A stretch of DNA of 32,597 nt from Planctomycetota bacterium (lineage in GTDB: Bacteria; Planctomycetota; PUPC01; JABMSA01; JAUWKK01), in NCBI GenBank assembly GCA_030614245.1, contig JAUWKK010000002.1, positions 1 to 32,597 of the forward strand, read 5' to 3'. A program made the position numbers and the translations under genes. The notes beneath the pieces were generated by a model. That model had not been told where the DNA came from, made no database searches, and worked only from the letters and a program-made list of their open reading frames with translations. Position 1 is the first letter of the stretch, and every line of letters starts with the position of its first letter. Shown here in pieces: positions 1,621-32,439 of the stretch.

Positions 1621-1824
1621 TTAAAGCATCTCCCGACCGGGACCATCGCGAATCTCTCGGAACATCTGTCTGACTTCGGCCCGCCCGGCGTAACGCAGTC
1701 CGCGCCGATAGTGGTTCTTGGCGAAGCGCGCCATCCCCCTGCGTGCCCGAAAAAGTCTCCGAAATCTCGTGAGGATATCCTGCTCGTCGCCCCCGCAAAG
1801 TGCAATGCGTCCCTCGCGGCTCAT
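1621..1824 (-). CDS. Small basic protein of unknown function (67 aa)
   Basis: The ATG at 1824 overlaps the TGA that ends the corrected DUF4031 frame (TCATGA), the coupling style used throughout this operon. The stop is two bases before the PP-loop gene start. The product is Arg-rich (REGR, RFRRLFRARRG, YRRGLRYAGR) with no motif I recognise. In the sequence as given, the DUF4031 frame is shifted and runs straight into this gene, so an automatic annotation may show one 156-residue fusion instead. Confidence 0.5.
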   Translation of the reverse strand: MSREGRIALCGGDEQDILTRFRRLFRARRGMARFAKNHYRRGLRYAGRAEVRQMFREIRDGPGREML

Positions 1825-2091
1825 GATGTCGCCCCCCGCTCCTGCCGCAGCCGCACGAGGGTCGGGGCCGTCACCTCGTGCGGCCCCGTGCAACACCGCC
1901 AGGCGGCGTTTATTGGCCGTCAAGTCGTAGCGATCGGTCTGCAGCCACGATCGTCGCAGCCCGATCGCTTTCCGCATCATCTCCAACTTCTCGTCCGTAT
2001 CCGCCATCATGTGACAGCATTCGCGGCATCCCTCCGGGAACCTCCCAACCCAGTCTCGGCTAAGGAAGAGTTTGTCGACATAGACAGCCAT
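1621..2091 (-). CDS. DUF4031 protein, frameshifted and fused to downstream small gene
   Basis: The start ATG 2091 overlaps the upstream TGA (TGATG). Residues 1-70 match DUF4031: MAVYVDKLF, then CHMMADTDEKLEMM, then RSWLQTDRYDLTANKRR. After AVLHG the in-frame reading becomes a low-complexity Arg/Ala stretch and continues through the 67-residue gene to 1621. Removing one base within 1880-1888 (a GGGGCCG stretch on the minus strand) restores HEVTAPTLVRLRQERGATS and a TGA at 1821, giving 89 residues, about the normal family length, with an ATGA overlap to the next gene. A one-base insertion, real or a sequencing error, therefore explains the fusion. DUF4031 proteins are small and of unknown function, common in phages and actinobacteria. 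Confidence 0.7.
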   Translation of the reverse strand: MAVYVDKLFLSRDWVGRFPEGCRECCHMMADTDEKLEMMRKAIGLRRSWLQTDRYDLTANKRRLAVLHGAARGDGPDPRAAAAGAGGDIMSREGRIALCGGDEQDILTRFRRLFRARRGMARFAKNHYRRGLRYAGRAEVRQMFREIRDGPGREML

Positions 2092-6922: not shown

Positions 6923-7264
6923 TTATCTCTCATGGTTGAGGAGCTTCTTGATATCGAGTAGGTGATTGGCGATGACGCCGAGTCCGCCGATTATGAATGC
7001 GATGCCAACACTTAAGATACCGCAGCCCAAGATGATACACCCCGGAATTGATCGAGTCGCCGCTTGAGTTCCTCGTAAAATCTCGCCGCGACTATGCCAA
7101 AAACTCTCATGCCTTATATCGTATCCGACCGGCGTTGCCATCATGAACCCGATGAAGACGAGAAAAGCGGCCAGCAGTCCCAGGCCGACCGCACCCACTA
7201 TCATATCAGACCCGCGTTGTCGCTTCTTCTCGGTTCCCGGTATCGGTCCTTTGTGTCCCATCAT
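6923..7264 (-). CDS. Small two-pass membrane protein (113 aa)
   Basis: Two adjacent ATGs, 7264 (overlapping the upstream TGA as TGATG) and 7261, share an AAGGAG 4 and 7 bases upstream, so the start is uncertain by one codon. After a basic N-terminus (HKGPIPGTEKKRQR) there are two hydrophobic helices: IVGAVGLGLLAAFLVFIGF and a longer Gly/Ile-rich one near the C-terminus (GCIILGCGILSVGIAFIIGG). The short loop between them is polar. The size and topology fit a holin or a superinfection-exclusion membrane protein, but its place in the early operon and the lack of family signal leave function open. Confidence 0.6.
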   Translation of the reverse strand: MMGHKGPIPGTEKKRQRGSDMIVGAVGLGLLAAFLVFIGFMMATPVGYDIRHESFWHSRGEILRGTQAATRSIPGCIILGCGILSVGIAFIIGGLGVIANHLLDIKKLLNHER

Positions 7265-7611
7265 CAAACTCCTTGCTTGTTGGTTGGAACGAGCGAGCGC
7301 GCCACTTGCATCGAGGCCCACGGGATCGGCCGCTCGCCCCGCTCATACCTGGCGATGTTGTTGCCCGTTGTGTGCAGCAGCTCCGCCAGGCGGGCCTGAG
7401 TGAGGCCGAGCCGCTTGCGGATGGTCCGCAGCTCTACACCCGAGGCCCAGCGGCGGTCGACGGTGCGCACAGATGCGTCTATGCCGATCATCGCATAGCT
7501 ATCCGGCTCGGCGAACCGCACGAGCGCGTAGACGTGAAGTCCGCCGCGTTCCTCATCGGCAGGGTGGCGGAGGAACTCGGCTATCAGTATGGCGTTCTGT
7601 GGTAGATTCAT
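7264..7611 (-). CDS. Xre-family helix-turn-helix regulator (115 aa)
   Basis: ATG 7611 is preceded by GAGGAGG and overlaps the upstream stop (ATGA). Residues 1-50 are a small domain of unknown type (LHVYALVRFAEPDSYAMIGI). Residues 58-105 form a Cro/C1-type helix-turn-helix: LRTIRKRLGLTQARLAELLH is the first part, followed by a recognition helix containing TTGNNIARYERG. Known relatives are phage or toxin-antitoxin repressors that bind short palindromes. It is the third gene of the operon from the promoter at 8426-8454, so autoregulation of that promoter is possible, though I saw no clear operator there. Confidence 0.75.
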   Translation of the reverse strand: MNLPQNAILIAEFLRHPADEERGGLHVYALVRFAEPDSYAMIGIDASVRTVDRRWASGVELRTIRKRLGLTQARLAELLHTTGNNIARYERGERPIPWASMQVARSLVPTNKQGV

Positions 7612-20710: not shown

Positions 20711-21682
20711 CTAGTTGTCGACCCTCACTAGGTGCCCCATGTACTTGTCGATGATTTTCTCATCGGTGTACATGTCGGCCTGGGTGATGTTCGACTTGGT
20801 CTGATTCTCGTAATACTGGGCCATCTCCACGAGATTCTTGACCATCTGCTTCCAGTAGATGATCCGACCGATGCAGGGCTCGAGAGGATTGCTGGTGACG
20901 GCGACCTTGGCGACCATCACGTAGTCGTCGCCCCAAATCTCGCCGCCGGTGAAATCCTGACCATCACTCGCGGTGTTGTAGACCGCCTGGCCCTCGATAA
21001 CCCGGTCGATGCCCAGCACTTGCGCGAGGTTATCGAGCTTCAGCTTCCGTGTAACGATCGCGCTCGCGGCAAACTTCGCCTGGATGGCCGTGTTGGTGTT
21101 GATCATCCTGTCGATGTTCGTGGTGTTGCAGATGAGCGCGTTGGGCATTACCCCAGTGACCATCAGCACTTTGAGCATGGCTGCCCGGATGTGACCGATG
21201 ATGTCCGAGGCGGCCGCGTCCCACGGCTTGTTGCCGTCGGCCGCGCTCCAGTCCGTGAACAGGGCGGCGCCCGACCACGTGCTGATGTTCATCACGGCAA
21301 GTGACACGCGGTACTCCAGCGAGCGGATCAAATCCGCAAACGCCTGCTCCGCGGCGACCATGTCCGCGTTGAACACGGTATCGTAGTTCTTCAAGTGCTC
21401 GACGGGCATCGGTATCTCCTGACCGTACCCCTCGCACTTGTAGGTCTGACTGTCGGCCGCGATATCGCGCCTCGGGTAAGTCGTCCCCGGAGCCCGCGTC
21501 AGCTGACGCAAACGAGTCATCGCCTCGCGCGTAAGCATCGTTATCGTGCCTTGCTGTTTCGGCAGCCCGATCGGTCCCAGCACCTGACTGGCGATCATCT
21601 TCTGGCCCTGGAGGTCAAACTCCCTGAACGCGCCGGCCAATTCCGGCTTCGGCCTCGAGGCCACATCTCCATGCTGGATCAT
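20711..21682 (-). CDS. Major capsid protein (323 aa)
   Basis: ATG 21682 has AAAGGGG about 8 bases upstream. The sequence has the style of the gpE-like/Mu-like capsid families: an N-terminal arm, a helix with EAMTRLRQLTRAPGTTYP, a central QGQEIP-like loop, then DWSAADGNKPWDAA and a C-terminal part with WGDDYVMVAKVAVTSNP and EPCIGRIIYWKQM. It comes after the protease/scaffold and decoration genes, the expected position. It lacks an obvious signal for extra processing beyond the scaffold. Identification rests on length, order and motif style. Confidence 0.75.
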   Translation of the reverse strand: MIQHGDVASRPKPELAGAFREFDLQGQKMIASQVLGPIGLPKQQGTITMLTREAMTRLRQLTRAPGTTYPRRDIAADSQTYKCEGYGQEIPMPVEHLKNYDTVFNADMVAAEQAFADLIRSLEYRVSLAVMNISTWSGAALFTDWSAADGNKPWDAAASDIIGHIRAAMLKVLMVTGVMPNALICNTTNIDRMINTNTAIQAKFAASAIVTRKLKLDNLAQVLGIDRVIEGQAVYNTASDGQDFTGGEIWGDDYVMVAKVAVTSNPLEPCIGRIIYWKQMVKNLVEMAQYYENQTKSNITQADMYTDEKIIDKYMGHLVRVDN

Positions 21683-23212: not shown

Positions 23213-23998
23213 GTCCTCATCTCCTGAAAAAGCCGTGGGGGTGTCCCCCGAAATCGTCAATCCGTTTCTGATCAAGAACTCCGTTATAAACTTTCGCACC
23301 CGCTGCGGCTTCAGACCGCCGAATATATCGGCCGGCGGTTCGGCGTCCCGCAGCCCGAATACGTATCGGCAGGCGAGCTCGCCCAACGCCGTCAATTCTT
23401 GGGGTTGGCTCAAGAATCCTCCTGGATTCGCCGCCGGATCGTCCACAACATCAGTCGATGCCAGACTATCCAAGCGTGCGTGCATCAGGTCATCCTCATT
23501 CGCCTCGTCCGGACTCACGAAATCACCATCGTCATCCTCGTTCTCTTCGGCGAATTCCTTCTCGGCATCCGGGTCGTGGTAAAAGACGATGCTGGCGCCG
23601 AACATATCCGGCTCTTTATCGGCCATGCGCAATATGTACGAGCCGAGCTTGCCGTCGGGCGATTCGTCCGCCAACTCTGAGACATGGAGATCCGCCCGGA
23701 CGATATTCCCATCCAGACGATAATCCTTCGCCCGCCCGAGGAACTTGCCCAGGCCGTCGTTGCAAAGCCCCGGGTGCGTGAACCGCACCTTAACCCCCAG
23801 CTTCTTGGCATTGCCTCCCTCGACCACCTGTGCCAGGAAGGCGCGGTCAATCCAGAAGTCATGGCCCAGGGCCTCGCCCTCGGTTATCACCGCGAAGTCG
23901 CGGATGAGCTGCCGGTCAGCGTCCACCCGCGCATCCTTCATGCTCCCGGCAAAACTAAGGCGTTCCCGGTTCGGTCTACTTATCGTCGCTGTCGTCAT
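22778..23998 (-). CDS. Head maturation protease fused to scaffold (406 aa)
   Basis: The start is ATG 23998 with AGGAAAG upstream, overlapping the portal 3' end by 23 bases. The N-terminal ~250 residues have a prohead protease pattern: RFTHP (72-76) carrying a candidate catalytic His, a GxxLGR loop, and FGASIVF (133-139) carrying a candidate Ser, spaced as in HK97-type proteases. A long acidic linker follows (EENEDDDGDF) and then a coiled-coil scaffold region from about 263. Known: such proteases cleave the scaffold and capsid N-terminus after assembly. The catalytic assignment is by eye. Confidence 0.75.
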   Translation of the reverse strand: MTTATISRPNRERLSFAGSMKDARVDADRQLIRDFAVITEGEALGHDFWIDRAFLAQVVEGGNAKKLGVKVRFTHPGLCNDGLGKFLGRAKDYRLDGNIVRADLHVSELADESPDGKLGSYILRMADKEPDMFGASIVFYHDPDAEKEFAEENEDDDGDFVSPDEANEDDLMHARLDSLASTDVVDDPAANPGGFLSQPQELTALGELACRYVFGLRDAEPPADIFGGLKPQRVRKFITEFLIRNGLTISGDTPTAFSGDEDMADKKSLKEILVAMQQAFPEDADFALASAIGDLSVMEAKAAYCDKLQAELARVKTAGAEALKVQTVEVARLTEENAGIRKELLAGSDGVQHVPEPDAVTKEAAIAAAEKVAEARVRAEPGIRYQDAYAEAYKVEIAKRPTLDGA

Positions 23999-25598
23999 CT
24001 TCTTTCCTCTCTTTGGGCGGCGTGCCTCCTGCTAGCACAGCCTGCAATGTCTTCCCCTGGTCTACGCCGGCCAGGAGGGGCCAGAGTTCTTTCGCCGTAG
24101 CAAGACCCGCAGCGCCTTCCTCGACCTCCTGCGCCCTCTGTATGGCATCGAGGATCTCTTGACCCCGCGTCTCCAGGAACTCTCCCCGGTCCTGCGAGAG
24201 CGCGCCCAATGCATCCGTCTGCGTCGCCAGACCGCGGTCCATCTTCTTCGCCCAGGCCGAGACCTCTTTATCCTCGTCCACCCACGGCCAACTTGGGACC
24301 ACCCATTTGTGCTCGAGGATGCTAGACCGCCATGCCAATTTGCCCTCGGCCACCCAGCGCGCGACCTGCCAGCGATAGAGCCGCGAATAGAAACTCCGGA
24401 TCAGCAGCTGCTGCCACGCCCGGAACACGATGAATGCCTGCAGCAGCACGGCGCGCGAGCTCGAGTAATTCAGTTTGCCCCAGTCCAGCAGGATCAACTC
24501 GAGGGGAAGGCCGACGGGGATGGCGAAAAGCCTGATGAACAGCTTGACCGCTCCCTCGAAGTTCTGAGCGGGCCGCGTCTGGCGGATGCCCTTGATTTCC
24601 TGGCCCTTATCGCCGAAGAACGCCGTCGCCATGCCGACATTCATCACCTTCATATCCAGGTCGGGTATCTTCGCGACCGTCCGGTCTTCCGAGCCCGTTA
24701 CCCTGACTGGTTCCCCGCCCTCGGATGTCGTGACCGACAAGGCCAGCCGCGACAGCACCTGCCATGAAATGGCCTCGCTCGTCAGGATATCCTCGAGACG
24801 GTGAGCGATGGCCATTGAGGATACGAGTACCGGCACCCCGCGCGTCTGCGAGGACCGCTTGACGCGATTCAGGATATAAATTGCGTGCTCCGCCTCGATC
24901 GTCGTGGTATCGGCGTGTTCCGGATAGCCCCGGCCGCTGTCCGCGCCCGTTATTTCGAAGCCGACGATCCTGCCCCGCTTATCGAGCCGCACGCCCTGCT
25001 CGACCCTGATGCCCCGATCGTCCTCGCCCGCGGGCATCCTATTCGATCCGATGCGCTCTGCCTCGACGTGCTGCATTTGACCGTCCGCCAATTTCAGCAG
25101 CAACGTATCGCCGACTACCATCAACTCGCGCAGAACGATCTCCTCCATCTTCTTCCCGGGGTGGATTTCCCGCGCCTCGGGATTTTTCCACCACTCGTGC
25201 CATAATTTCTCGATCTTATCGTTCACGCTCGGGATGCTGGATTGGGCCTGCAAGCTGAATCCCGTCGGCCCGAGGATGTAATCGCACGCGCGGTTGATCA
25301 CCGCCTCATACAACCAGTTGTTGCGGTCGAGCCCGCGCGAGGCATCCACGAGCAGACCCCGGTCGTAGCGCATGTGGCTGTCCGCACTGCCCCCCACCTC
25401 CCAGCTGCCGGTCGACCGCAGGTAATCCGTGGCCTTATAGCCGAGTGCCGTATATTTGCCCACAGGCTGAAATTCCAGCGTATCGTCGGATTGAGAGGCA
25501 GTCCGCTTTCCCGGTTGGACGCCATCATTCACCTCGGCGGCCCCGGACCGCCCTCGACCAAATAGGCGTTGGAATTGGTTGCGAGCGGATTCAGTCAC
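23976..25598 (-). CDS. Portal protein, lambda gpB type (540 aa)
   Basis: The start is GTG 25598, inside the end of the preceding gene (GTGACTGA overlap). The order of elements is that of the lambda-type portal: N-terminal arm, DYILGPTGFSLQAQ, LWHEWWKNPEAREIHPG, VLRELMVVGDTLLLK, then GVPVLVSSMAIAHRLEDI and a C-terminal coiled region ending in an acidic tail (KERKEDDDSDDK). It forms the dodecameric DNA channel at one capsid vertex and binds TerL. The downstream protease-scaffold gene overlaps its end, consistent with head operons. Confidence 0.85.
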   Translation of the reverse strand: MTESARNQFQRLFGRGRSGAAEVNDGVQPGKRTASQSDDTLEFQPVGKYTALGYKATDYLRSTGSWEVGGSADSHMRYDRGLLVDASRGLDRNNWLYEAVINRACDYILGPTGFSLQAQSSIPSVNDKIEKLWHEWWKNPEAREIHPGKKMEEIVLRELMVVGDTLLLKLADGQMQHVEAERIGSNRMPAGEDDRGIRVEQGVRLDKRGRIVGFEITGADSGRGYPEHADTTTIEAEHAIYILNRVKRSSQTRGVPVLVSSMAIAHRLEDILTSEAISWQVLSRLALSVTTSEGGEPVRVTGSEDRTVAKIPDLDMKVMNVGMATAFFGDKGQEIKGIRQTRPAQNFEGAVKLFIRLFAIPVGLPLELILLDWGKLNYSSSRAVLLQAFIVFRAWQQLLIRSFYSRLYRWQVARWVAEGKLAWRSSILEHKWVVPSWPWVDEDKEVSAWAKKMDRGLATQTDALGALSQDRGEFLETRGQEILDAIQRAQEVEEGAAGLATAKELWPLLAGVDQGKTLQAVLAGGTPPKERKEDDDSDDK

Positions 25599-25863
25599 GG
25601 CGGGGCACCATTCCTACAAATTGCGGCGAGGCGGATCGCACGGTCGCATTGAGCGCATCCATTAATTTGGCGAGATGCACCTCGAGGTCTCGGCGGTATT
25701 CGCTAAGCACATACCGGTCTGCAGATTGCTCTCCTGCAGCCTGCGATTTGAAGCCGGCGAGACGCTGCTCGACCTCCTCGATATGCAGCTGCAGTTCCAG
25801 GCGCTGGGCATCGAGCCCTTCCTCGCGTCGCCATCCACCATGCTCCCAAACCGGAACTGCCAT
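25591..25863 (-). CDS. Small helical protein before portal, gpW-position (90 aa)
   Basis: ATG 25863 has AGGAG about 8 bases upstream. The 90-residue product is charged and helical (LQLHIEEVEQRLAGFKSQAA, YRRDLEVHLAKLMDALNA). It occupies the position of lambda gpW between TerL and portal, and shares its approximate size, but sequence resemblance is not claimed. It overlaps the portal start by 8 bases and is the first gene after the terminator at 25921. Confidence 0.55.
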   Translation of the reverse strand: MAVPVWEHGGWRREEGLDAQRLELQLHIEEVEQRLAGFKSQAAGEQSADRYVLSEYRRDLEVHLAKLMDALNATVRSASPQFVGMVPRRD

Positions 25864-25920
25864 CGATACTCTCCTGATTCCCGATCTGTCATCCGAGGCG
25901 GGCGCGGCCGGGCGATCATG

Positions 25921-25964
25921 AAAAAAAGCGAGCCGCGTGATTGTGTGGCCCCACACGGCTCGCT
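25921..25964 (-). terminator. Rho-independent terminator after the tRNA
   Basis: On the minus strand AGCGAGCCG and CGGCTCGCT pair over nine bases, with a smaller inner hairpin (GTGTGG/CCACAC), and seven T residues follow. It stands between the tRNA and the portal operon, in the middle of what is otherwise one co-directional late gene block. Readthrough, antitermination or a promoter downstream would be needed for the head genes; I saw no promoter in 25864-25920. Confidence 0.8.
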
Positions 25965-26036
25965 TCAATATCGACCGCTCCGGCCCGCAGCGGGGGATCG
26001 GCCCGGCGCGTGCCCGCGGAAGTTCAAATTATCGGA

Positions 26037-26112
26037 TGGAGGCGGGAGCTGGATTCGAACCAGCGACCTTCAGGTTATGGGCCTGACAAGCTACCTACTG
26101 CTCCATCCCGCC
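26037..26112 (-). tRNA. tRNA with CAU anticodon, initiator-like but atypical
   Basis: The 76-base minus-strand sequence folds fully: a 7-bp acceptor (GGCGGGA/TCCCGCC), D-arm GAGC/GCTT, anticodon stem TCAGG/CCTGA with loop CCCATAA, T-arm GCTGG-TTCGAAT-CCAGC, and an encoded 3' CCA. Anticodon CAU: Met, or Ile2 if modified. A11-U24 and the overall D- and T-arm sequence resemble bacterial initiator tRNA. Atypical: position 33 is C instead of U, the 1-72 pair is G-C instead of the initiator mismatch, the G-C triplet of the anticodon stem is A-U/G-C/G-C, and the discriminator is U instead of A. It lies alone between a terminator and an intergenic stem-loop. It may be functional, specialised or decayed. 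Confidence 0.85.
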
Positions 26113-26113
26113 A

Positions 26114-26135
26114 TCGCTGGCCTCGGGGTCAGCGA
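26114..26135. repeat. 22-bp intergenic stem-loop, copy 2 (reverse orientation)
   Basis: Identical to the reverse complement of 6277-6298, starting one base 5' of the tRNA on its coding strand. TCGCTGGCC-TCGG-GGTCAGCGA folds with a 9-bp stem and UCGG loop on the plus strand. It lies between the zinc-ribbon gene ending at 26194 and the tRNA. Confidence 0.6.
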
Positions 26136-26193
26136 GCTCTTCGCGGCCATAATAATACCACCCGGTATGAAGCATGCAACAATAAACTCCCAC

Positions 26194-26550
26194 TCAGTGG
26201 GGAATTTCATCATCGCCTGGACGAGACAGTTTCCGCCGTTCCTCGGTGGTCACCGGCTTGGTGTATGTGCATCCCTGATCCCGCGCCAAGCAATAGTAAA
26301 GCCTGGTGACGATATCGATAAAAGGACGCACGCGGGATGGTTCGCGGTTATCCGTCTTGCCAATCCGCATGTCGCTGCCGCATTTCGGGCATTGCGGGCC
26401 GGGCCCCGGTGCAGACCGCTCCCGGTATACCGGCACGATCTTTTTAGCCGTCTCCGGTACCGTCCCCGCCGGTTTCTTGCGGGCTGAGCCGCCGCTCTTT
26501 CGCCTGGCCCCCGCCTTCTTGCTATGCGATCTCTTCTTCGCCTTTGGCAT
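26194..26550 (-). CDS. Basic zinc-ribbon protein, possibly Ogr/Delta-like (118 aa)
   Basis: ATG 26550 has AGGAG 7 bases upstream. Residues 1-35 are Lys/Arg-rich and probably bind nucleic acid. CPKCGSDMRI at about 54 and YYCLARDQGCTYT (about 85-97) provide two cysteine pairs in the spacing of an Ogr/Delta-type zinc finger. Known: Ogr/Delta proteins activate phage late promoters via RNA polymerase alpha-CTD. The similarity is loose, but the alpha-CTD-like phage protein makes it worth noting. Confidence 0.55.
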   Translation of the reverse strand: MPKAKKRSHSKKAGARRKSGGSARKKPAGTVPETAKKIVPVYRERSAPGPGPQCPKCGSDMRIGKTDNREPSRVRPFIDIVTRLYYCLARDQGCTYTKPVTTEERRKLSRPGDDEIPH

Positions 26551-27093: not shown

Positions 27094-29184
27094 CTAGTAC
27101 TCCGTCGTTATGTCCTTGGGCACGATTACCCGCCCAGCCCGCCTGGCGAGACGCGATCCCCGCGGCCCGCCCGGTTCTACCCATCCCCTCGGCTGTTTGC
27201 TGGCCGCCGCGGAGGCAGCGGCCACCTGCAACTTTTCGGCCTCGACCTCGAGAACCGTCATCATGGCCCCGCCCAGAGAATAGCAGGCACAGTCCCAGAC
27301 GTGGTAGCTCCCCTTTTCCACCCATACCCGCTTTTCCCTGCCTTTCACCATCGTTACCTCGCGCTTCGCGCGCATGAAGTGTGCGAATATCCATCCCTGA
27401 TTGCCGGGGCCTTTGCCGCGACCAGACCTGTCGCTGTTCGCCGCGTCCCGGGGGAAGTAATGATAGCCCGGACTCCCGGCTTCCCGAAATAGGCGGAACA
27501 GCACCTCGTCCTTGATGCGATCCACATCGAAGAACCACAATATCGAGTTATCGGGTTGCCTTCGGGCCTGCACCATATCCGGCGCGCCATCGATGAGCTG
27601 CAGTTGTTTGCCCGATGCCTTCATCTTGTTGAGCTGGCCTTCGGAGCGCCCGACGAGAGCATGCACCGCCCCACCCTGTTCTTTGCACCAGGTTCGTACC
27701 GTGTGGCCGAGAATGCCCTCGTGCTTGTAGCCAGTGTCGATCCATATCGATACGCAGTTGTAGATCGCCATTTGGGCCCGCACGGCGTCCAGAGCACGTC
27801 GCACGTCAGCTTTGGTCGGATCGCGCTCCAGACCCTCAGGGATGATCTCTTGCACGCCATAGTGCAACGTCCGGCGTGTCAGTGCCGCGTTGTAGCCATC
27901 GATGAGCCAGTATAGATTGATCTTCTGCACGTCGACCGCTCCCACGCAGAAATCCACGCCCTCGGGCAGGTCGCCCCCATCACCCAAGGGATCGAACCGG
28001 TAATCCGCAGCGTGTCTGGCGAGCAGGGCGTATGTAAGCGGCACTCCCTGCACATCGTCTTTCCACGGGATCGCCCAAGTGAACTGGCAGAGGGCTTTCT
28101 CTGCCGAGGTGCCCTCGGTTCTCTCGCCCGCCCATTCTTCTTCGGCGATGTCCGCCATCTTGCGCATCGTGCTATGCAGGGCATTCCAGCGGAAGCCGAA
28201 GGTACGCGTGGGCGGCGACGGGCCCACCACCTCGCCGTCGGGTTCCACGTGTTGGCCCCGGTGGACGATGCGAGGGTTGACTAAGGCGTTGCGCCGATCC
28301 AACTCACACCACACCGTGCCGCAATCAGCGCAGGCGTATGCACCACTAGCACGCGCCGCGAATTCATTTTCGGCATCCTCCCAGCCCCCGAACTGCTCCC
28401 GTTCGGGGCATTGCCAGGTACCGCAATGCGGGCATGCTACCATCACACGAGAATCCGAGCCGTTCTTGATCTCGGTATACACCCGACCCTTCTCTATGGA
28501 CATGGTACATTCGCCATAGAACACGGCGTCCTCGCTGAACGAGGCGGATCGGGCTTCAAATTGCTTGACCGGATCGGTCTCGCGAGAGACCGCGCCCGGC
28601 TGATCCATCTTATCCAGCTCCGTAGCTAATATGACCCGGGCCGTGTAGGAGGATCGCTGGGCATCGCTGCCGCCCGCGCCCATGAACCGCACCCTCGCGT
28701 CGTTCAGCAGCAGCAGCGATTTCGCCTTGCCGCCCCGACTGCCCGTCCCCGTCTCGGGCAGCAGATGCTTGTATCGGGTCATTTCCAGCGCCGGCAGTAT
28801 CCGCTCGATCCACACGGACTGCGCCAGCTCGATCACCGGCGCGCAGATTATGATATCCTCGGCCACCTCGAAGAGGTGATACGCGGCCGGGATCACGAGA
28901 AAGATGAAGGTCTTGCCGCCCTGCACTGGCCCGCTGCCGATGAACCGGCGAAAGACCCCGCCGTCCATAATCTGCAGCACCTGGCGCGTCCAGGGCATAA
29001 ATGACGTCTTGAACCGCAGGCCCCGCCTCGGCCCGGTGGGCAGGATCATCTCGGTCTCGGCGAACTCCAGGCGCGAACGCAACTTCCGCGGGCTGATGGC
29101 CCTGTAGAACGCCGTGATCGGCGCCAGCCAGTCCATCGCGGCACCTTGTTTAGCGGCCTTAGATAGTTGCGTCCGCTTCACCAT
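27094..29184 (-). CDS. terL: Terminase large subunit, GpA family (696 aa)
   Basis: ATG 29184 has AAGGAA upstream. The lambda gpA-type order is clear: a GPVQGGKT Walker A at 85-92, ATPase middle with RVILATELDKM (183-193) at the Walker B position, a zinc-binding CPHCG ... CADCG (251-288), and a nuclease domain with VGAVDVQKINLYWLIDGY and WIDTGYKHE. It packages concatemeric DNA into procapsids with TerS and portal. Compared with canonical DE at Walker B, Thr-Glu is seen. Directly downstream of terS. Confidence 0.9.
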   Translation of the reverse strand: MVKRTQLSKAAKQGAAMDWLAPITAFYRAISPRKLRSRLEFAETEMILPTGPRRGLRFKTSFMPWTRQVLQIMDGGVFRRFIGSGPVQGGKTFIFLVIPAAYHLFEVAEDIIICAPVIELAQSVWIERILPALEMTRYKHLLPETGTGSRGGKAKSLLLLNDARVRFMGAGGSDAQRSSYTARVILATELDKMDQPGAVSRETDPVKQFEARSASFSEDAVFYGECTMSIEKGRVYTEIKNGSDSRVMVACPHCGTWQCPEREQFGGWEDAENEFAARASGAYACADCGTVWCELDRRNALVNPRIVHRGQHVEPDGEVVGPSPPTRTFGFRWNALHSTMRKMADIAEEEWAGERTEGTSAEKALCQFTWAIPWKDDVQGVPLTYALLARHAADYRFDPLGDGGDLPEGVDFCVGAVDVQKINLYWLIDGYNAALTRRTLHYGVQEIIPEGLERDPTKADVRRALDAVRAQMAIYNCVSIWIDTGYKHEGILGHTVRTWCKEQGGAVHALVGRSEGQLNKMKASGKQLQLIDGAPDMVQARRQPDNSILWFFDVDRIKDEVLFRLFREAGSPGYHYFPRDAANSDRSGRGKGPGNQGWIFAHFMRAKREVTMVKGREKRVWVEKGSYHVWDCACYSLGGAMMTVLEVEAEKLQVAAASAAASKQPRGWVEPGGPRGSRLARRAGRVIVPKDITTEY

Positions 29185-30729: not shown

Positions 30730-31159
30730 TTCTGCCCGCGGGATTGTCAAGCCGGAAGCCGGCACCTGGTCCTCGACTACCTCGCCGTATGCTTCACCCA
30801 GCAACTCGGTCAGTGCATCCTCATCGAACCCGAGCAGCTCGATGTCGAAGTCCAATTCCTGCAACTCGCCGATCTCCAGCTTCAGCAGCGCCTCATCCCA
30901 ACCCGCGTTCGCAGCCAGCTTGTTGTCCGAGATTATCACCGCACGCTGCCATCACCCGGCCGTGGCCCGCGATGATGCCCCCTTCCGGGTCAATCAACAC
31001 CGGGTTCGTCCAGCCGAATTCCCGGATGCTGGCGACGATCTGAGCCACCTGCTCTTCGCTATGTGTCCGGGCGTTCCCAGCGTAGGGTTCCAGCACGTCC
31101 ACCGAACGATATATCACGCTCAGCTTTTTGCCGGCGACTTTCTTTTTCCTTTTCGACAT
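30721..31159 (-). pseudogene. ParB-like protein with internal out-of-frame deletion
   Basis: From ATG 31159 the frame reads LSVIYRSVDVLEPYAGNART and GIIAGHGRVMAA, the first half of a ParB/Srx nuclease-type domain. At about 30945 it leaves frame. The next frame resumes RAVIISDNKLAANAGWDEAL, the normal second half, then ELLGEAYGEVVEDQ and stops at 30721. About 21 residues that normally join the halves are absent and the frame has shifted, so a deletion of roughly 60-70 bases not divisible by three is likely. The N-terminal part could still be made as a short protein. An assembly error is the main alternative. Confidence 0.7.
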
Positions 31160-32439
31160 ATCGGCTTCTGTCTCTTTGCCTTCTGTCCTGTCATCATCTG
31201 CCATCGGTCCACGATCACATCGCAATACCTCGGCTCGATCTCCATCCCATAGCAAACACGCCCGAGCTGCTCGGCGGCGATCAGCGTCGTGCCCGAGCCG
31301 AGGAAGGGGTCGTAGACGAGTTCGCCGGGCTTTGTGCTGTCGCCCATCTGCTCTGCTACCAACTCCATCGGCTTGATTGTTGGGTGCGCTTCGCTTTGCG
31401 TAGGGCGCTTGTATTCGAAGATGGTGTCGCGTGTCCTCTCCTTTGTGAAGTAGTGACCGGCACCCGGAGTCCAACCATAGAAGATCGGCTCGTGCCTGTA
31501 GTGATAGTCACTACGCCCCATCACGAAACTACTCTTCACCCATATCAATGAACGACGCCATATCTTCAAGTCGATGAGCACGGCACCAAAGACGTTATGT
31601 AGCGGCCCCGGCGGGGCCGCTACATACCACGCGGCTCCCTTCTCGCAGACCGCCACTGCAAGCGTGAACGCATTGGTCAGCAACGATTGCAGACCAACCT
31701 CGTCCAGGTTGTCTCCGGCGACCTCCATTCCGCCCATTCGCTTTCGTTCGGCGGGGCTGTATTGATGGCTGAACCCATCAACATACCCAACTCCGTACGG
31801 CGGATCAGTCCAAACCAATCGAGCCTTCTCGCCCGCCATTAGCATCGCAACGTCTTCCTTCTTCGTGCTGTCTCCGCACATCACGCGGTGCGGTCCCATC
31901 GTAATCAGATCGCCGGTTTTCGTCCTGGCCTTCTTCGGGGGCTGTGGCACCGCGTCCTCTTCCACCTCCGGCTCATCGACCGGGAAGTCCACCAGCAGCA
32001 GATCGAGGTTCAGTCGCTCGAATTGTTCCGGGTCGATATCCTGGAGGCCGTCCAGCAGCCCGGTCACGTCGATCGTGAAGTCGCCCGCGATGTGCGAATT
32101 GTTCGCCGTGAGGTTCGCCGCCTGCTCCGTCGCCAGGTCCCAGTCCACCACCCGCACATCGAACCGGTCACCCCCACACACCACATAGACTTTGCCTTGC
32201 CTCTTGTGGAACTTGCCCCCTGCCGCCTGCAACTGTGCCACGCGCTGATGCCCGCAGACCAGATTCCCGGTCTGAGAGTTCCAAACGATGCCGCTTATGT
32301 CCCCAAACTCGACCAGACTGTGGCGGAGGCCCTCCGCGGCTTCTTGTGTGATATCCCGCGGGTTGTAATGCGCGGGCCGCAAGTCGTCGAACGACCCCGG
32401 TATTTTGGGGTATGTTGTCATTTTTTTCCGCCGCGCCAT
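31120..32439 (-). CDS. ParB-domain/DNA methyltransferase fusion (439 aa)
   Basis: ATG 32439 has GGAGG 8 bases upstream. The N-terminal part (10-130) is a ParB-like domain with GHQRVAQL (63-70). The C-terminal part is a beta-class N6-adenine/N4-cytosine methyltransferase: DPPYGVGY (212-219) as motif IV, HPTIKP (352-357), and DPFLGSGTTL (377-386) as motif I. The IV-before-I order is characteristic of the beta class. Known: this fusion is common in phages of diverse hosts, used to modify phage DNA against restriction. No restriction partner is present. It overlaps the broken second ParB gene by 40 bases. Confidence 0.85.
   Translation of the reverse strand: MARRKKMTTYPKIPGSFDDLRPAHYNPRDITQEAAEGLRHSLVEFGDISGIVWNSQTGNLVCGHQRVAQLQAAGGKFHKRQGKVYVVCGGDRFDVRVVDWDLATEQAANLTANNSHIAGDFTIDVTGLLDGLQDIDPEQFERLNLDLLLVDFPVDEPEVEEDAVPQPPKKARTKTGDLITMGPHRVMCGDSTKKEDVAMLMAGEKARLVWTDPPYGVGYVDGFSHQYSPAERKRMGGMEVAGDNLDEVGLQSLLTNAFTLAVAVCEKGAAWYVAAPPGPLHNVFGAVLIDLKIWRRSLIWVKSSFVMGRSDYHYRHEPIFYGWTPGAGHYFTKERTRDTIFEYKRPTQSEAHPTIKPMELVAEQMGDSTKPGELVYDPFLGSGTTLIAAEQLGRVCYGMEIEPRYCDVIVDRWQMMTGQKAKRQKPICRKGKRKSPAKS

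Follow-up and report, generated by a model that had tools for sequence, protein, structure and literature searches.

U33 is among the most conserved positions in tRNA. The DNA analyzed here (the window) is a whole contig of 32,597 bases from a 2.85-Mb draft genome (83% complete), and it encodes a CAU tRNA that has the body of a bacterial initiator and C33 in place of U33. The question raised by this locus is whether the gene is a lone error or belongs to a class of viral tRNAs in which C33 recurs, and, if so, how such a tRNA might be used. A preliminary description had listed C33, G1-C72, U73 and A29-U41 as departures from the bacterial initiator and A11-U24 as a likeness to it, and had offered three readings, namely a specialized initiator variant, a decoy or a decayed gene.

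The tRNA gene

Exactly one tRNA is found by ARAGORN in the 32.6-kb window, a tRNA-Met(CAT) at 26037-26112 on the minus strand, which scores 65 bits (E 3.9e-12) against Rfam RF00005. The tRNA reads GGCGGGA UG GAGC AGUAGGUA GCUU G UCAGG CCCAUAA CCUGA AGGUC GCUGG UUCGAAU CCAGC UCCCGCC U CCA, and a structural parse gives a complete cloverleaf with every stem intact. The perfect fold and encoded CCA first described for this CAU tRNA are borne out by the ARAGORN call and the RF00005 score, and C33, G1-C72, U73, A29-U41 and A11-U24 are each present in the parse. The gene and its unusual positions are:

26037-26112, minus strand: initiator-like tRNA, anticodon CAU, encoded CCA (ARAGORN; Rfam RF00005, 65 bits; structural parse)
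26077-26079, minus strand: anticodon CAU, positions 34-36 (ARAGORN and Rfam)
26080 (plus-strand position), minus strand: C33 replacing the near-universal U33 (sequence, Rfam, structural parse)
26072-26084, minus strand: A29-to-U41 part of the stem-loop with A29-U41, G30-C40 and G31-C39, which keeps two of the initiator's three G-C pairs (structural parse)
26037-26041, minus strand: C72 (26041; its partner G1 is at 26112), U73 (26040) and the encoded CCA (structural parse)

Bacterial initiators are marked by a 1-72 mismatch, which serves formylation, by A11-U24, by G2-C71 and C3-G70, which assist formylation, and by three anticodon-stem G-C pairs (PMC7949028); methionine identity depends on A73, with U33 as a minor element (PMC9976931). 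The window tRNA has the CAU anticodon, A11-U24, G2-C71 and C3-G70, and lacks the weak or mismatched 1-72 pair, the full set of three anticodon-stem G-C pairs, A73 and U33. A different CAU tRNA, the lysidine-modified tRNA-Ile2, is ruled out by U73 and G4-C69, where isoleucine identity calls for A73 and C4-G69 (PMC9976931).

The phage contig and the gene neighborhood

Judging from its terminase, portal and major head protein genes, all on the minus strand, the contig is that of a phage or prophage. The features around the tRNA are:

27094-29184, minus strand: terminase large subunit, upstream of the tRNA (PHROG 15, E 5.3e-44)
26194-26550, minus strand: 118-aa gene upstream of the tRNA with no family match (open reading frame; family searches)
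25921-25966, minus strand: 16-pair hairpin with a T run after it (-28.9 kcal/mol, z -4.7; folding)
23976-25598, minus strand: portal protein, downstream of the tRNA (PHROG 21, E 2.6e-52)
20711-21682, minus strand: major head protein (PHROG 1005, E 4.2e-32)
25675-26487 and 25941-26309, plus strand: open frames antisense to the tRNA (WIRTSDLQVMGL... and ELDSNQRPSGYG...; list of open reading frames)

The tRNA lies between the small gene at 26194-26550 and the portal-side genes, all on the same strand, and a promoter scan found no promoter. By its form, the hairpin with its T run is likely an intrinsic terminator; it lies downstream of the tRNA, at a distance of about 70 nt, and precedes the portal-side genes. 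The terminator consensus scan takes loops of 3-8 and hence does not list this hairpin, which has a loop of 10. The two antisense frames resemble the spurious frames often annotated over initiator tRNA genes, and we take them not to be genes. A role for the tRNA as a prophage attachment site is not supported, because the gene is complete and sits within the packaging module.

The window terminase has a relative at 45% identity in a Planctomycetales MAG, which points to Planctomycetota as the probable phylum of the host MAG. A terminase search of the host phylum turned up distantly related prophages, and the related stretches examined contain no tRNA; a search of the viral contig collection with the portal protein gave no close relatives. 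Three other minus-strand genes of the contig may be mentioned. A 113-aa phage protein (4941-5282) carries an RNA polymerase alpha C-terminal domain (PF03118, E 9.4e-12) and may act on host transcription; a helix-turn-helix protein is encoded at 7264-7611, with a weak match to the MqsA antitoxin that is below the cut-off; and the gene at 31120-32439 specifies a DNA methyltransferase whose N-terminal part is ParB-like (PHROG 498, E 9.7e-108; PHROG 620).

Comparison with the host initiator and the host phylum

The host genome's own initiator (with a second matching site on contig C88) has U33, C1xU72, A73 and three G-C pairs, and the phage tRNA is therefore no copy of the host gene. With bacterial tRNAfMet, of which the host's is an example, the window tRNA shares CAU, A11-U24, G2-C71, C3-G70, G30-C40, G31-C39, C32, A37 and A38. 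It differs from the host initiator in having C33 rather than U33, G1-C72 rather than a mismatch, U73 rather than A73, and A29-U41 rather than G29-C41; the anticodon loop is CCCAUAA in the window tRNA and CUCAUAA in the host.

A pattern scan of 149 host-phylum genomes found U33 in all 121 cellular initiator matches. The same genomes gave two C33 matches, one being the window tRNA itself and the other a sequence that is not a tRNA. Every one of the 38 distinct host-phylum initiators that were parsed has U33, a mismatched 1-72 and A73. The A29-U41 pair is a mild departure and not odd in itself, because several U33 initiators of the host phylum also carry it.

Recurrence of C33 among viral initiator-like tRNAs

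The picture among viruses is different. An exact-pattern scan of IMG/VR, a collection that contains prophages and fragments, for the GGG/CCC anticodon stem with C33 matched 44 stretches, of which 41 are clear tRNAs, and a second scan, which combined C33 with the A29-U41 pair of the window tRNA, matched 78 stretches, all of them tRNA sequence. Parsing and deduplication left 91 distinct C33 initiator-like tRNAs (60 with A29-U41, 31 with G29-C41). The contigs that carry them form about 89 clusters at the DNA level, an upper bound on the number of lineages since the stretches may not overlap, and beyond the tRNA itself few of these contigs have even distant protein similarity to the window. Because there are 91 distinct C33 tRNAs on about 89 clusters, C33 is no lone error. 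Together with the high tRNA score, this recurrence in many unrelated phage tRNAs also means that the window tRNA is more than a chance match.

Purines were not found at this position: the A33 or G33 initiator pattern matched 16 stretches in IMG/VR, none of them a tRNA. Among deposited viruses, C33 initiator-like tRNAs are carried by Pseudomonas phage D3, its Detrevirus relative FBPa47, Janthinobacterium phage Donnerlittchen and Virus Rctr197k; of the remaining phage initiators examined in deposited records, the majority have U33. A longer viral pattern that left position 33 open matched 17 stretches, giving 12 distinct tRNAs. Three of these 12 have C33, against 0 of 121 in the host phylum (Fisher p 6e-4), frequencies that are to be read as estimates, the viral scans being fixed sequence patterns. 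The U33 scan of IMG/VR, whose matches count as a lower bound, and the scans selected for C33 yield no frequency. A 30-base C33 query had no perfect match among 155 plasmid records, a scan with the 5' half (GGCGGGATGGAGCAG) returned three tRNAs only, all with U33, and a near-exact pattern of the T arm and acceptor of the window tRNA had no matches. Among tRNAs with other anticodons on the viral contigs examined, 8 of 287 have C33.

C33 is accordingly a minority yet recurrent variant, concentrated in viral initiators and absent from the bacterial sets checked. A search of the open literature, with subscription journals outside its scope, found no description of C33 in phage initiator tRNAs, and the C33 phage initiator looks like a real, previously unremarked viral variant.

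Some minor observations come from the same contigs. C33 also occurs in a few phage Pro, Thr, Gly, Ala and Val tRNAs, and three predicted phage tRNAs on two contigs have G33, these cases involving eight contigs in all. Among the U33 viral matches listed, many consist of only the 3' part of an initiator gene after unrelated sequence (at least 14 contigs), as would be expected of prophage attachment sites in initiator genes.

The acceptor end: G1-C72 and U73

Across phages, C33 recurs commonly and a paired 1-72 with pyrimidine 73 rarely, and the full set of departures is not a large class. Only one other contig among those of the 91 C33 tRNAs has the full combination of the window. This is L311 (IMGVR_UViG_3300019889_000008), an unrelated phage contig whose tRNA (1776-1852, minus strand) has G1-C72, U73, C33, A29-U41, A11-U24 and CCA. 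A G-C or C-G pair at 1-72 is found in 6 of the 151 viral initiator-like tRNAs with A11-U24. Pyrimidine 73 accompanies this pair in 4 of the 6 and is found in 11 of the 145 others (p 9e-4); in so small and pattern-biased a sample, this association of the two features among viral initiators is suggestive only. Vibrio phage D479, Erwinia phage phiEa21-4 and Pseudanabaena phage Pan5 resemble the window in having U73 with a closed 1-72 pair, but their pair is A1-U72 and their position 33 is U. The tRNA-Met of phiEa21-4, with its initiator body, loop UUCAUUA, A1-U72 and U73, is another departure from the initiator rules.

By E. coli rules, the G1-C72 and U73 of the window predict weaker formylation and weaker charging. 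Initiation by such a tRNA is nevertheless conceivable, because a G1-C72 tRNA is used in initiation in T. brucei mitochondria when it is partly formylated (PMC7949028). As a conjecture, the window tRNA may be poorly formylated or of dual use, in adaptation to its own host. The acceptor end, less common than C33, may alter how the tRNA is used.

How a C33 initiator might be used

The C33 class as a whole has the look of working initiators. Among the 91 tRNAs, A73 is present in 81, A11-U24 in 81 and a mismatched 1-72 in 66, and the stems are maintained despite many pair changes. (G30-C40 and G31-C39 are present in 91 of 91, but this is little informative, the two pairs being fixed by the scan patterns.) The kept stems, the A73 and the mismatched or weak 1-72 of most members are the reasons for seeing these tRNAs as working. 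By the published initiator rules, most of the class should therefore acquire methionine, undergo formylation and enter the P site. The window tRNA shares with the class (D3, FBPa47, Donnerlittchen, Rctr197k and the 91 from IMG/VR) the C33 initiator body, the intact cloverleaf and the phage genome, and differs in its G1-C72 and U73, where most members have A73 with a mismatched or weak 1-72.

The reading that we favor, to which we give somewhat better than an even chance, is that the window encodes an initiator-like tRNA of a recurrent viral C33 class used at AUG in the P site. The body that defines the class has A11-U24, G2-C71, C3-G70, G30-C40, G31-C39 and the loop C32-N33-CAUAA, with C at position 33. 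In infected cells, the window tRNA would carry methionine and serve at AUG codons in the P site. The sharp turn at U33 matters most in A-site decoding, and initiators skip the A site. Since an initiator would go straight to the P site and bypass A-site decoding, a pyrimidine at 33 could be enough and C33 could be tolerated; C33 would also discourage use of the tRNA in elongation. The concentration of C33 in initiators and the lack of purine 33 fit this P-site reading. A further benefit may come from evading host anticodon nucleases that cleave initiator tRNA.

Of the three readings in the preliminary description, the specialized initiator variant comes out best, although only in part: the recurrence of C33 and the intact fold speak for it, and the absence of A73 and of the 1-72 mismatch speaks against it. 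The parallel drawn there with vertebrate initiators is real, since C33 occurs naturally in eukaryotic initiator tRNAs (PMC9023262). The likeness is confined to C33, with the domain of life, the acceptor end and the T loop all differing, and nothing here ties the two by descent.

This variant matters as a viral class in which C has repeatedly replaced U33, mostly in initiators and seldom in other tRNAs, while no replacement by a purine turned up in the sets checked. It makes two questions testable, namely the reason for initiator tRNAs in phage genomes and the role of position 33 when bacterial translation starts, and phage D3 offers a laboratory system for both. In a bolder and doubtful extension, phages of many lineages would keep the C33 initiator by selection, as a P-site-only or tRNase-resistant tRNA, and those tRNAs that join a closed 1-72 pair to pyrimidine 73 (the window and L311) would start translation without normal formylation, providing the phage with a separate initiation channel.

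Alternative explanations

C33 could instead be explained chiefly by escape from anticodon nucleases. On infection, host tRNases (VapC and others) would stop translation, and the phage tRNA would be a spare initiator whose C33 loop they leave uncut. Examples of phage tRNAs with altered anticodon loops that are predicted to escape host tRNases have been described (PMC10264068), and the anticodon loop of the window tRNA likewise differs in sequence from that of its host counterpart. Initiator tRNA is cleaved by both enteric and leptospiral VapC, in the enteric case between A38 and C39 (PMC4105405). The host MAG encodes one PIN-domain protein (1408-1947 of L268, contig C186) preceded by a VapB-like reading frame, possibly a VapBC pair. 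However, the 38/39 cut site of VapC is unaltered in the window tRNA, and no effect of position 33 on VapC cleavage was found in the open literature. If nucleases exerted a general pressure on U33, C33 would not be expected to be concentrated in initiators and rare in other phage tRNAs. In S. flexneri, tRNA-fMet is a VapC target, and phages there tend not to encode this tRNA (PMC10264068). As the main cause of C33, nuclease escape is unlikely.

Relaxed constraint, which we rate as quite improbable, would make C33 nearly neutral because the host supplies a good initiator, with G1-C72 and U73 as further drift in a dispensable gene. C33 is indeed the transition product of U33, the combination of C33, G1-C72 and U73 is rare, and U33 is retained by most deposited phage initiators examined. 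Drift of this kind fits poorly with the absence of A33 or G33 tRNAs among the 16 IMG/VR pattern matches, with intact stems throughout and A73 kept in 81 of 91 C33 tRNAs, and with the return of the full window combination in the unrelated L311.

A decoy or regulatory tRNA, occupying MetRS, IF2, a toxin or a nuclease rather than serving initiation, is very unlikely. In its favor, G1-C72 and U73 are expected to make formylation and charging weaker (PMC7949028, PMC9976931), but most members of the C33 class have a normal acceptor end, so that C33 itself would be left unexplained. Finally, a decayed gene or an assembly error might be suspected where a single gene on one MAG contig differs from the canonical initiator at four points, but it is extremely improbable given the perfect cloverleaf with intact stems, the score of 65 bits, the encoded CCA, the 91 distinct phage tRNAs with C33 and the same departures in L311.
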